From contig NZ_FTMZ01000023.1 of NCBI RefSeq assembly GCF_900156335.1, positions 1 to 64,000 of the forward strand: a stretch of 64,000 nucleotides of DNA, read 5' to 3'. The stretch's first letter is position 1. Every line of letters starts with the position of its first letter. A program made the translations under genes and the position numbers. This document shows positions 52,424 through 56,563 of the stretch, piece after piece. The notes beneath the pieces were generated by a model. It had not been told where the DNA came from and did not search any database. It saw nothing but the letters and a program-made list of their open reading frames with translations. The stretch comes from Sphaerotilus natans (GTDB lineage: Bacteria > Pseudomonadota > Gammaproteobacteria > Burkholderiales > Burkholderiaceae_C).

Positions 52424-55400
52424 TCAGCCGCAGGCGCCGACGAAGCCGCAGGCGGTGCAGAACTCGCAGCCGTCCTTGTGGATCATCGCGGCGTTGCCGC
52501 ATTCCGGGCACGGCTTGCCGGCCATCACCCGCTCGGCGACCGGCGGCGTGGCGGCCGCCTCGCCCTCGGTCACGCTGCCCGGCGCGGCCAGCACGCCCAT
52601 CTCGCTGACCGGATAGCCTTCCTCGTCAAGGATGCCCAGCATCGCGTAGCGGTGGATGACCAGCCGCGCCACATAGGCCACCGTGCTCGGCCAGACCTGC
52701 TGGCGCCGCTGGCCCGGCGGCAGGCCCGGCACCGGCGCCATGAAGTGGCCCAGCGGCTCACCGATGCTCAGCATCTTGCGCAGCTTCATGCCAATCCAGC
52801 CCGGATCGATGACGCGCATGTCCAGCGACAGCAGCCGCGCCAGCCCGTCGAAGGCGCGCGGATAGTTGCCGGCAAAACCGATCGCGCAGGGCCGCGTGAC
52901 ATGGCCGCCCTCGGGCGTCGGCAGCGAGACCTCCTTGAGCGTCAGCGTGAAGGCCTCGCCGCTGGCCGGGTTGTCGATGTCGACCGCCCAGGCCAGCGTG
53001 CCATCGACGCCAGTGCGCGGCTCCTCGCGGCTGAACATCGCGTCGAGCACCGGCGTCGGGCCGCCCTCCTGCAGCGCGCCGAGCTGCTCGCAGCGCCAGC
53101 GGATCACCGCGGCGGTGGCGGCGACCACGCCGGGAAAGCGCCGACGCTCGCCGGTCGGCGGGAAGGGCATGTCGAAGGCGCGCTCCTCGGCCACCGTCGC
53201 CAGCGCGTCGAGCTTGAGCCGGAGCCAGCTCGGATCGTTGGCGCGCATGTCCATCGACAGCGTCTTGGCCAGCGCCGCCAGCCCGCGCGGCTGCTCGGCG
53301 CCGTTGAACCAGACCTCGAAAGGCAGCGTCTGTCCGAACAGGCCCGCGTCCGGCCCGGCTTCGGCCGGCAACTCGCCGATGAACAGCGCGAAGTCGCCGT
53401 GCGGATGCTGGATCAGGTAGCTCCACGCCGGATTGCCGGCGGCCAGCTCCGGGCGGCCCGGCCAGCGCAGGCTGGCGAGCACCGGCTGGGGCAGGCGGTC
53501 CAGGCGCAGGCGGCGGTTGGTGCCGTCGTCGCCCGCCTCGGCCACCGTCAGCGGCTGGGGCTGGGGCGCCGCCGGCAAGGCCGGCGTCGGCGCGGCAGCC
53601 GGGGCCTCGGCCACCGGCGCGGGCGCGGCCGGAGCCGCCGGCGGATCGACGCTCAGCACCGCACCCAGCACGCTGTTGGGGCGGTAGGTCGCCAGCCCCT
53701 TCAGCCCGGACTTCCAGGCGATGAAGTACAGATCCTGGAAGTCCTCGTACGGATAGTCGGCCGGCACGTTGACCGTCTTGCTGATCGAGGTGTCGATGAA
53801 GGGCGCCACCGCCGCGACCATCGCCTCGTGCGCCTCGGCGCTCATCTCCAGCGCGGTGACGAAGGCCTCGGTCAGCGGCGCGTTGTGGCCCTTCAGGTGG
53901 CGGTAGAGCCGCCAGGCGTGGTCCTCGACCGCGTACTCGCGGAAGCTGCCGTCGGCCTCGCGCTTGCGCCGGGTGTAGGTCCAGCTGAACGGCGGCTCGA
54001 TGCCATTGCTGGCGTTGTCGGCGAAGGCCAGGCTGATCGTGCCGGTCGGCGCGATCGACAACAGGTGCGAGTTGCGCAGGCCGTGGGCGCGGATGCGCTC
54101 CTTCAGGTCGGCCGGCAGCCGCGACGCGAAGCTGCCGCGGCTCAGGTACAGGTCGGCGTTGAACAGCGGGAAGGCGCCGCGCTCCTTCGCCAGCTCGACC
54201 GAAGCCCCGTAGGAGGCGTCGCGCATCACCTCGGAAATGCGCCGCGCCATCGCGCGCGCCGCCGGCGTGTCGTAGCGCAGGCCCAGCATGATCAGCGCGT
54301 CGCCCAGACCGGTGAATCCCAGGCCGATGCGGCGCTTGTTCGCGGCCTCCTCCTGCTGCTGCTGCAGCGGCCAGACCGTCTCGTCGAGCACGTTGTCGAG
54401 CATGCGCACCGCCACCGCGCAGACCTCGGAGAACGCCGTCTCGTCGAAGGAAGCGGTCGCGGCGAACGGATCGCGCACGAAGCGCGTCAGGTCCACCGAG
54501 CCCAGGCAGCAGCAGCCGTAGGACGGAAGAGGCTGCTCGGCGCACTGTCCAGTCACCAGCCCATTGAAGATGACGGTGTTGCGATCGACCTGCGTGGTGT
54601 CGTAGACCGGCGCGCTGCCCGCCGGCTCGATCGCGCTGATCCGGGCGGTGAAGCGCTGCGACTTGCGCAGCACCTTGTCGGCGGCCCAGGCCTGGTATTT
54701 GTCGTTCTTCAGCGGCAGCAGGAAGCCGATCTCGCGCATGAAGACATCGCGCGACTCGCCATCGATGATCAGCTCGTGCGAGGCCTGGCAGGCATAGGCG
54801 CGATGGCCGCCGCGACCATCCGGCAGCAGGCGCTCGCCCGCCGGGCGCCGCGCGTGGATGCGCGAGAGCACGCCGAAGTTGGCCAGCAGTTGCTGGACCT
54901 CGCGCAGCAGGGGCCGATGGACTGAGCTCAGCCGCACCGAGCAGGTGTCGGCCCCCGGCTGGGTGTTGACCGTGCCATCGGTCTGGAACAGGCCGCGCAG
55001 ATAGCCGCGCACGCAGTCCTCGCTGCCCTGCCACACGACCTCAGGCACCTGCAGCTTGGTCTCCCGGGTGAAGCCCAGCGTGCGCAGCCAGCGCGCCAGC
55101 AGCGTCGAGCGGATCGACACGCTCTGGCGCTGCGGCACCGCGACCGGTGCGACCTGATAAAGCCGACCGCCCTCCTGCATGGCACCGAGCACCCGGTTGA
55201 CGAAGGCGGTCACCGTATCGGCCAGCGCCCGCTCCTCGTTCCAGAGCGTGATGACCGCCGCCTCCTGACCGTGGCCGCGGTTCGTGAAATGCCCGTCTCC
55301 AGCCATCAGGCCGAGCAGGCAGCCCAGCTCCTCCGAGCCCTGCTGGCCAAACTGACCCTTGCCGGACTGGACCAGCAGCTCGTCGCCCACCTGCAGCTCG

Positions 55401-56563
55401 GAGAGCTTCAGACGCCCGCGGGAGGTGTGGAAGTCATGCCAGGCGGTGGCGGTGATCTCGTAGCCCTCGCGGGTGACGACCCGGAACACTTGCGCCTGCG
55501 GTGCCGTCATGAAGGCTGGAACGGCCGGACGGACCTCGGTGCCACGCGTCTGCTCGTCGAACACCCGACGATCGACCGTCACCTGCAGAGCGACGCCGCT
55601 CTGATGCAGCTGACGGATCGGGATCAGCCCGTACTGGGTCGCCAGCCGGGTTTCGCCGACGACACACGGGTTGGTCGCGGTGATCGACTCGCAATAGCCG
55701 AGGTTGTTGTCCTCGTTGATACGATCGATGAACAGGATGCCCGGCTCGGCATGGTCGTAGGTCGAGCGCATGATCTGGTCCCACAGCTCGCGCGCGCGAA
55801 TGCGGCGGTAGACCCACTGGCCGTCGTCGCGCCGCCAGGCGCCGGCGGCCTTGATCTTGCGGCCCGGCTCGGCCTTGTGGATCAGCTCGATGTCGTCGTC
55901 GGCCTCGACCGCGCGCATGAACTCGTTCGTGACGCCGACCGAGATGTTGAAGTTGCGCAGGTCGCCCTGGTCCTTGGCGTGGATGAACTCCTCGATGTCG
56001 GGATGGTCGCAGCGCAGCACGCCCATCTGCGCGCCGCGCCGGCTGCCCGCCGACTCGACCGTCTCGCAGCTGCGGTCGAACACGCGCATGTAGCTCACCG
56101 GGCCGGAGGCGTGGCTGTCGGTCGAGCCGACCCAGGCCCCCTTGGGCCGGATGCGCGAGAAGTCGTAGCCGACGCCGCCGCCGCGGCGCATGGTCTCGGC
56201 CGCCTCGGTCAGCGCGGTGTAGATGCCGGGAAAACCCTCTTCCGGCTCGGCGATCGAGTCGCCCACCGGCTGCACGAAGCAGTTGATCAGCGTCGCGCCC
56301 AGCGGCGTGCCCGCCGCCGAGGCAATGCGCCCGGCCGGCACGAAGCCGCGCTCCTGGGCCTCGACGAAGCGCGCCTCCCAGTGGGCGCGCGATTCGGGCG
56401 CCTCGCCGGCCGCCAGCGCACGCGCCACGCGTCGGCGCACCTCGGCGGCGCTGCGCTCGCCCCCCTTGGCGTACTTCTCGACCAGCACCTCGGCGCTGAT
56501 CGGCTGCGCGGGCAGCGGGGTCTCGTCCCGGGTCCGCTCGTCCCGGCTCACATCCGTCGTCAT
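52424..56563 (-). CDS. nrdJ: B12-dependent ribonucleotide reductase (class II) with an intein
   Basis: A 1379-residue precursor encoding a class II, adenosylcobalamin-dependent ribonucleotide reductase, which makes deoxynucleotides without oxygen requirement. An intein of 374 residues (300-673) interrupts it, leaving a mature 1005-residue enzyme. The extein joint reads ATNP / [10 protein letters not shown], so the +1 cysteine is the expected thiyl-radical cysteine. The C terminus carries a zinc-ribbon (CPECG, then CEFC and CGFVGACG). AGGAG precedes the ATG at 56563; longer frames upstream are not homologous. The gene is divergent from a DUF59-like gene and convergent with the MCP-like gene, 10 bases apart. 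Confidence 0.95.
54545..55666 (-). mobile_element. Intein with LAGLIDADG homing endonuclease inside nrdJ
   Basis: A 374-residue in-frame element. It begins with Cys ([17 protein letters not shown], splicing block A), has block [11 protein letters not shown], and carries two LAGLIDADG-type dodecapeptides ([11 protein letters not shown] and [11 protein letters not shown]) with their catalytic acids. It ends [21 protein letters not shown] just before the extein Cys. The last residue is Gln rather than Asn and the usual penultimate His is Gly, both atypical. The endonuclease looks intact, so the element may still be mobile. Confidence 0.92.

Follow-up and report, generated by a model that had tools for sequence, protein, structure and literature searches.

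A Putatively Mobile Intein Ending in Gly-Gln at the Radical-Cysteine Site of the Class II Ribonucleotide Reductase NrdJ of Sphaerotilus natans

The nrdJ Gene and Its Intein

The stretch of DNA analysed here, hereafter the window, comprises the first 64,000 nucleotides of contig NZ_FTMZ01000023.1 of Sphaerotilus natans and harbors nrdJ, coding for the precursor of a class II ribonucleotide reductase (RNR) interrupted by an intein that ends in Gly-Gln. The open reading frame of nrdJ is uninterrupted from the ATG at position 56563 to the stop at position 52424 of the minus strand, with the intein in frame (Table 1). The protein matches the NCBIfam profile NrdJ_Z (TIGR02504) with 574.5 bits (cut-off 399.95) and the reductase barrel domain of Pfam with 420.7 bits. 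With a family profile over its cut-off and the NPC radical-cysteine motif, the host protein can be assigned, as far as its sequence tells, to the class II RNRs.

The boundaries that the original prediction had given for the intein are exact to the base, as judged from the translation of the minus strand. Its placement directly before the predicted radical cysteine is borne out by an alignment with Thermotoga maritima NrdJ (1xje), where TATNPCAE of the spliced query faces NSTNPCGE: the N-extein ends with ESITATNP, the C-terminal end of the intein reads FNGLVTGQ, and the insertion thus falls between TNP and CAEQ. Cys+1, the first residue after the intein, corresponds in this alignment to the NPC-motif Cys of T. 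maritima NrdJ (residue 322, counted along the printed alignment), which we take to be the radical cysteine.

Within the intein, the LAGLIDADG_3 family of Pfam matches with 85.4 bits and the NCBIfam profile intein_Nterm lies above its cut-off (31.9 versus 24.5 bits); the match to Intein_splicing (Pfam) is sub-threshold (20.7 bits, cut-off 35.8). The Pfam intein splicing family has one match in the genome, i.e., the NrdJ intein. A single weak PHROGs match, to a terminase family, covers residues 1-109 (E 3.1e-5). The guanine plus cytosine (GC) content at third codon positions is 0.88 in the intein and 0.95 in both exteins. Inteins 98% identical to this one are located at the same nrdJ site in two further genomes of the genus, so that the window intein is not a matter of chance; the intein of S. 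sulfidivorans D-501 (locus L017) is 98% identical to it.

Table 1. Interrupted nrdJ gene of the window, with the predicted splicing residues and endonuclease motifs of its intein
Feature	Position	Strand	Basis or conservation
nrdJ, class II (adenosylcobalamin-dependent) ribonucleotide reductase precursor	52424..56563	-	Profile matches; stop codon included
N-extein	55667-56563	-	Part of nrdJ
C-extein	52427-54544	-	Part of nrdJ
Intein, 374 residues, Cys1 ... Gly373-Gln374	54545..55666	-	Translation; boundaries shared by homologues
Cys1, first splicing nucleophile	55664..55666	-	Invariant, 25/25 in clade
Block B Thr74-x-x-His77, assisting step 1, canonical	55436..55447	-	Each 25/25 in clade
Block C, first LAGLIDADG motif LLGLMAGDG (residues 117-125), with Asp124	55292..55318	-	Motif comparison
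Block E, second LAGLIDADG motif LRGLFQTDG (residues 223-231), with Asp230	54974..55000	-	Motif comparison
Asp356, block F position 4 (F:4), canonical	54599..54601	-	25/25 in clade
Asn363 at F:13, where the block-F His is usual	54578..54580	-	Asn 25/25 in clade
Gly373, penultimate (G:6), usually His	54548..54550	-	Gly 24/25 in clade; Ala once (L093)
Gln374, last residue (G:7), usually Asn	54545..54547	-	Gln 25/25 in clade
Cys+1, splicing nucleophile, then predicted radical Cys of NrdJ (NPC motif)	54542..54544	-	Alignment with 1xje

Splicing Residues and Endonuclease Motifs

The roles of the splicing positions follow PMC4031507, and the choice of Asn363 as F:13 derives from the alignment made here. 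The window intein has a nucleophilic residue 1, a nucleophilic residue +1, the block B Thr-x-x-His and the Asp at F:4, a combination that places it, by its signatures, among the class 1 inteins. All three residues usual for the third splicing step, i.e., the His at F:13, the penultimate His and the terminal Asn, are replaced, by Asn363, Gly373 and Gln374, respectively. The Gly-Gln ending in place of His-Asn had been recognized from the start; the replacement of the block-F His is a third change, absent from the original prediction. The three residues are usual and not absolute, and exceptions to each of them are on record (PMC4031507); their lack thus marks a variant and not an exclusion from the class. 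The two LAGLIDADG motifs, already described from the sequence, are indeed present with their acidic residues Asp124 and Asp230, and the central part of the intein is predicted to be an intact LAGLIDADG homing endonuclease.

A Clade of NrdJ Inteins Ending in Gln

The window intein was used as a query with E up to 0.001, a search that also catches other kinds of intein and endonuclease. Matches were found in 15/100 genomes of relatives, 41/299 of the family, 52/369 of the class and 20/398 of the phylum, as well as, with E up to 1e-5, in 181 phage and four plasmid records. Only part of the matches was turned into loci, and 13 duplicate or overlapping loci were left out beforehand. The boundary pattern consisted of N-P, N-L or N-T before Cys1 and of Asn, Gln or Asp as the last residue ahead of Cys-x-Glu; site and ending type are, therefore, partly preset by it. 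Boundaries were readable at 91 loci (90 distinct), all of them directly before the Cys-x-Glu motif of an RNR. The 90 distinct inteins end in His-Asn (52), Gly-Gln (28), Gly-Asn (seven), Met-Asn, Ser-Asn and Ala-Gln (one each), counts that follow the choice of the query and are no census of inteins. Ten loci remained without boundaries (L008-L010, L015, L016, L066, L088, L097, L111 and L115): L097 shows a TGQ end before CGEQ, with masked bases; L111 is of the His-Asn type; the start is seen in L066 and L088, whose end is not present in the DNA examined; neither start nor end is seen in L015 and L016.

For the phylogenetic tree, the last two residues were trimmed and F:13 was masked. In this tree, the window and 24 other NrdJ rows share a single branch (Shimodaira-Hasegawa-like approximate likelihood ratio test, SH-aLRT, 96), hereafter the TGQ clade, and the 53 rows of the His-Asn type form a separate one (SH-aLRT 100). 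The labelled members of the clade carry 13 different family labels. Its endings are Thr-Gly-Gln (20), Ser-Gly-Gln (four) and Thr-Ala-Gln, the latter being that of L093 and the sole penultimate change among the 25 rows; Asn363 and Gln374 do not vary at all (Table 1). Asn368 is invariant as well and is also present in 52/53 inteins of the His-Asn type. At position 359, the clade has an invariant Gln, where the His-Asn clade has Val (45/53) or Ile (8/53), the five SP-beta-type inteins described below have Val (three) or Gln (two), and a phage group of six, two of its rows ending in Asn, has Glu.

Both acidic endonuclease residues are present in 19/22 full-length copies of the clade. The three mini-inteins among the 25 rows (252-276 residues) and the three copies in which an endonuclease motif is damaged (L096, L098 and L099) all keep the terminal Gln, i.e., the splicing end has been kept where homing has been lost. 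On this comparison, the Gly-Gln ending is to be regarded as a conserved mark of a widespread family and not as decay or a defect, and it need no longer be read as the sign of a crippled or regulated intein. The idea that the Gln is a recent mutation of a single lineage was rejected, the ending being clade-wide. A tie between the loss of the block-F His and the Gln was rejected too: in the His-Asn clade, F:13 is His in 27/53 rows and Asn in 26/53, with the penultimate His kept, and His occupies F:13 in 3/4 Gly-Gln rows of phages and plasmids. The mini-inteins (L007, L067 and L068, in three genomes) group together (SH-aLRT 97) and retain remnants of the endonuclease, which suggests a lineage that lost homing while keeping its splicing ends.

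Four other Gly-Gln rows, belonging to phages and a plasmid, are placed elsewhere in the tree, and a single clade of all Gln rows was rejected by an approximately unbiased test (p about 1e-91; two-tree test on a reduced tree of 44 rows with long branches). On this evidence, Gly-Gln endings appear to have arisen at least twice at the RNR site. A wider idea, which we put forward tentatively and hold to be somewhat short of an even chance, is that the TGQ clade, having all three step-3 residues replaced, performs the last splicing cleavage differently, and that Gly-Gln had an independent origin in the inteins of phages and plasmids; if true, the separate origins would point to the RNR radical-cysteine site as one favouring such chemistry. 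Inteins at the RNR site, inteins ending in Gln and inteins without the penultimate His were each known already. No description of a Gly-Gln NrdJ clade, or of a clade in which none of the three step-3 residues is the usual one, was found in the open-licence literature searched, which is weak evidence of novelty.

Comparison with Known Inteins

The inteins of the SP-beta BnrdE group, namely those of SP-beta, of an SPbeta-like phage of Staphylococcus, of the Brochothrix phage A9 and the Corynebacterium phage P1201, and of nrdE on a Miltoncostaea plasmid, resemble the window intein in lying directly before the Cys of the RNR radical motif and in having a penultimate Gly (5/5). The block-F string DTTQ is common to the window, SP-beta and Staphylococcus inteins, and the full-length identity to the window intein is 36% for SP-beta and 41% for Miltoncostaea. 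Unlike the window intein, they end in Asn, have the block-F His (5/5) and reside in NrdE-type class I RNRs instead of NrdJ. The P1201 relative, with 159 residues and a TGN end, occupies the same site, and the P1201 nrdE is reported to be experimentally active (PMC3653736). The His-Asn NrdJ inteins (53 rows, same phylum) share gene, insertion point, Cys1 and Cys+1 with the window intein, but are only 26-33% identical to it, end in His-Asn in 52/53 cases (Ser-Asn in one) and form their own branch. The TGQ inteins of Rheinheimera, Pectobacterium and Pseudoalteromonas phages and of a Nostoc plasmid likewise precede the radical-motif Cys and end in Gly-Gln; they differ in identity (25-30%), in the Cys instead of Asp at F:4 and in their separate branch.

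The RNR intein of Chilo iridescent virus (CIV), likened here by its description, has an RNR host and a native C-terminal Gln, with which it splices better than with Asn (PMC4031507). The Pyrococcus Pol II inteins (Pab and Pho) also end in Gln; unlike the window intein, they are mini-inteins in an archaeal polymerase and have retained the block-F His, a residue credited with aiding the cyclisation of Gln (PMC8229266, PMC8175363), and the Pho intein has the penultimate His too (His154 and His165; PMC8229266). The RDF intein in gp51 of phage Bethlehem, compared by description as well, shares the penultimate Gly, although its host is a phage directionality factor; changing this Gly to His makes splicing far worse and slower, and a block-F His can substitute for an absent penultimate one (PMC5050341). 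Since the TGQ clade has neither His, its third step is not accounted for by these precedents.

Two further kinds of intein were encountered at RNR radical sites. At L008, L009, L010 and L115, a related intein (28-33% identical over window residues 1-301) lies in class I NrdA, its insertion point shifted by one residue so that it immediately follows the radical-motif Cys (SNLC/C...KN/TEI), with Thr at +1 and a Lys-Asn end. In G004 and G009, whose NrdA frames are longer, an intein at the radical site was considered and rejected, the SNLCTEI string being uninterrupted there. In a ribonucleoside-triphosphate reductase of Thermus phage G20c (L059), a site of the same type harbors a highly divergent intein, which ends in Ser-Gly-Asn and has Asn at F:13.

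Mobility and Selection

Among the 13 genomes of the genus, the full intein is present in three (window, G006 and G007), a mini-intein in one (G004, a reduced form of 265 residues that groups with other mini-inteins) and an empty nrdJ in eight, while no nrdJ was found in one (G005, 83% complete). Intein-free alleles do, thus, exist in relatives, and Sphaerotilus offers full, endonuclease-poor and empty alleles together in one genus for the study of mobile-element biology.

The divergence of the intein does not always follow that of its surroundings. Between G006 and G007, the intein differs at 11/1122 bases versus 50/1620 in the flanks (Fisher p 1.8e-4), with a synonymous divergence (dS) of 0.017 in the intein versus 0.083 and 0.109 in the flanks and 0.061 in nrdA. 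The opposite direction is seen between the window and G006, i.e., 57/1122 versus 44/1620 (p 0.0018), with dS values of 0.193 for the intein, 0.087 and 0.115 for the flanks and 0.086 for nrdA. Over the 22 full-length members of the clade, where intein identity was compared with that of 300 flanking residues, discordance is greatest in pairs with 64-66% identity of the inteins and 34-35% identity of the NrdJ flanks.

The ratio of nonsynonymous to synonymous divergence (dN/dS) in the endonuclease part is 0.05-0.06 for the window versus the two congeners and 0.06-0.08 for three other pairs (it was not computable for one pair); for the splicing part, it is 0.05-0.07 at the N-terminal side and 0 at the C-terminal one, again versus the congeners. 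Taken together, the patchy presence, the low dN/dS and the discordant divergence of intein and flanks lend good support to a mobile element with a maintained endonuclease, and the homing endonuclease of the window, both motifs of which are intact, has probably been mobile recently. The predicted cutting of empty alleles has only an indirect sign in the apparent recent movement of the intein between G006 and G007.

The same values bear on whether the intein of the window is defunct or decaying, with NrdJ not made active and the cell relying on NrdA. The three atypical step-3 residues and the availability of NrdA would fit such a state, which we deem very improbable: the frame is open, dN/dS of both the splicing and the endonuclease parts versus the congeners is far below 1, and the exteins show a dN of 0.003-0.020 versus a dS of 0.087-0.141 (window versus G006, G007 and G001).

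Proposed Mechanism

It is quite likely that the window harbors a class 1, endonuclease-bearing intein of the mobile TGQ clade, which homes into the DNA for the radical-cysteine loop of NrdJ and is released through Gln374. The anatomy, the conservation across the clade, the patchy presence, the discordant divergence and the purifying selection were established by computation, while efficient splicing, the cyclisation of Gln and cleavage of the empty site by the endonuclease are inferred. The first two steps look canonical: a thioester would form at Cys1 with the help of the block B Thr-x-x-His, followed by transfer to Cys+1. In the third step, the most likely event is cyclisation of Gln374 to an aminoglutarimide, which would free the intein without the two usual helper histidines, and an acyl shift would then restore NPCAEQ. 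The conserved polar residues Gln359, Asp361 and Asn363 are candidate replacements for the step-3 histidines; Gln359 as a helper is a lead only. Cys+1 would, thus, be first a splicing nucleophile and afterwards the thiyl-radical cysteine, and, since it serves both roles, only the spliced protein could be active. The endonuclease would be kept by selection, the intein having recently moved between close species. The standard view of intein release invokes a terminal Asn aided by two histidines, and an evidently maintained mobile clade without any of the three represents natural material for establishing what step 3 needs.

Release might also occur through another group, such as the side chain of Asn368 or Asn363, or water, breaking the C-terminal bond without any cyclisation of Gln. 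Both helper histidines are missing in 25/25 rows, Asn363 and Asn368 are invariant, and mechanisms other than cyclisation are considered possible where the terminal residue of an intein is Glu, Gln or Asp (PMC4031507). However, Gln374 is just as invariant, and the five SP-beta-type inteins likewise have an amide residue, Asn, in this position, the pattern that a cyclising residue predicts; moreover, Asn368 is not special, given its presence in nearly all His-Asn-type inteins. Release by such a group appears improbable, and cyclisation of Gln374 is preferred.

Several observations weigh against the proposal of an efficiently spliced, mobile intein. The Pyrococcus Pol II inteins are slow with Gln and keep the block-F His (PMC4031507, PMC8229266, PMC8175363), slow splicing with Gln being described for the Pol II inteins of Pyrococcus abyssi and Methanoculleus (PMC4031507). 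In the literature searched, no clade member was found to have been assayed for splicing or cleavage. A protein scan of viral_contigs gave no confirmed relative. Between the window and G007, the difference between intein (58/1122) and flanks (63/1620) is not significant (p 0.13). Among the 22 full-length members, there is a loose correlation of intein identity with flank identity (Spearman 0.39), and some pairs are less alike in the intein than in the flanks (e.g., 0.52 versus 0.76), so that not all spread need be horizontal; the latter pairs all involve the motif-damaged L098 or L099. Finally, the dN/dS of the endonuclease is 0.32 for the window versus L019 and 0.90 for G006 versus G007, the latter with very few changes (dS 0.011), too few to weigh.

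Is the Intein a Control Point?

The original prediction had read the Gly-Gln end as a possible cause of slow splicing and, in turn, as a possible control point, the cell using the slowness of step 3 (or, e.g., its redox state) to set the level of active NrdJ. This part is not supported, and we consider it unlikely. The intein splits the radical loop and the precursor should, therefore, be inactive, a property of the insertion site. The literature on Gln and Gly endings and splicing speed is mixed: Pol II inteins ending in Gln become faster after a Gln to Asn change (PMC4031507), but the Bethlehem and CIV inteins perform better with their native Gly (PMC5050341) and Gln (PMC4031507), respectively. 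Against control also stand the constancy of the Gln in all 25 rows, over at least 13 family labels, the patchy presence, which fits a selfish element, and a second RNR, a class Ia-type NrdA, in the window genome (G000:C23); for NRDD, the class III family, no match was obtained.

Were the intein needed as a control, relatives should keep it; instead, uninterrupted NrdJs outnumber split ones. An uninterrupted NrdJ match is present in at least 145/299 genomes of the family, and a weaker one (best E between 1e-56 and 1e-20), read as split, in 38, 36 of which are also among the intein matches of the family scan; genomes outside these two groups have at most a weak NrdJ match or are unlisted. The evidence against the need for a conditional or regulatory role is circumstantial, and a control point based on slow splicing is not favoured.

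Empty nrdJ Alleles

In the empty alleles of G001 (L025) and G009 (L028/L133), which belong to a subclade whose sister species carry the intein, AT-ending codons are packed around the intein site: the third-position GC is 0.50 on each side over eight codons versus 0.95-0.96 further out. Comparable low-GC windows make up 2.2% (G001) and 0.4% (G009) of the genome background. The tract could have been left behind by an intein since lost, have arisen by conversion or represent silent resistance to the endonuclease. The low value in G001 as strong proof of intein loss was rejected in view of these background windows and is only suggestive; a phage source of the tract was rejected as well, the exact 20-base pattern having 0 matches in viral_contigs. 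The 31 other distinct empty alleles average 0.94 and 0.86 on the two sides; none of them has 0.5 or less on the N side and one (G010) does on the C side, L161 having 0.62 on both. A milder dip of third-position GC at the site is seen in the intein-bearing high-GC hosts.

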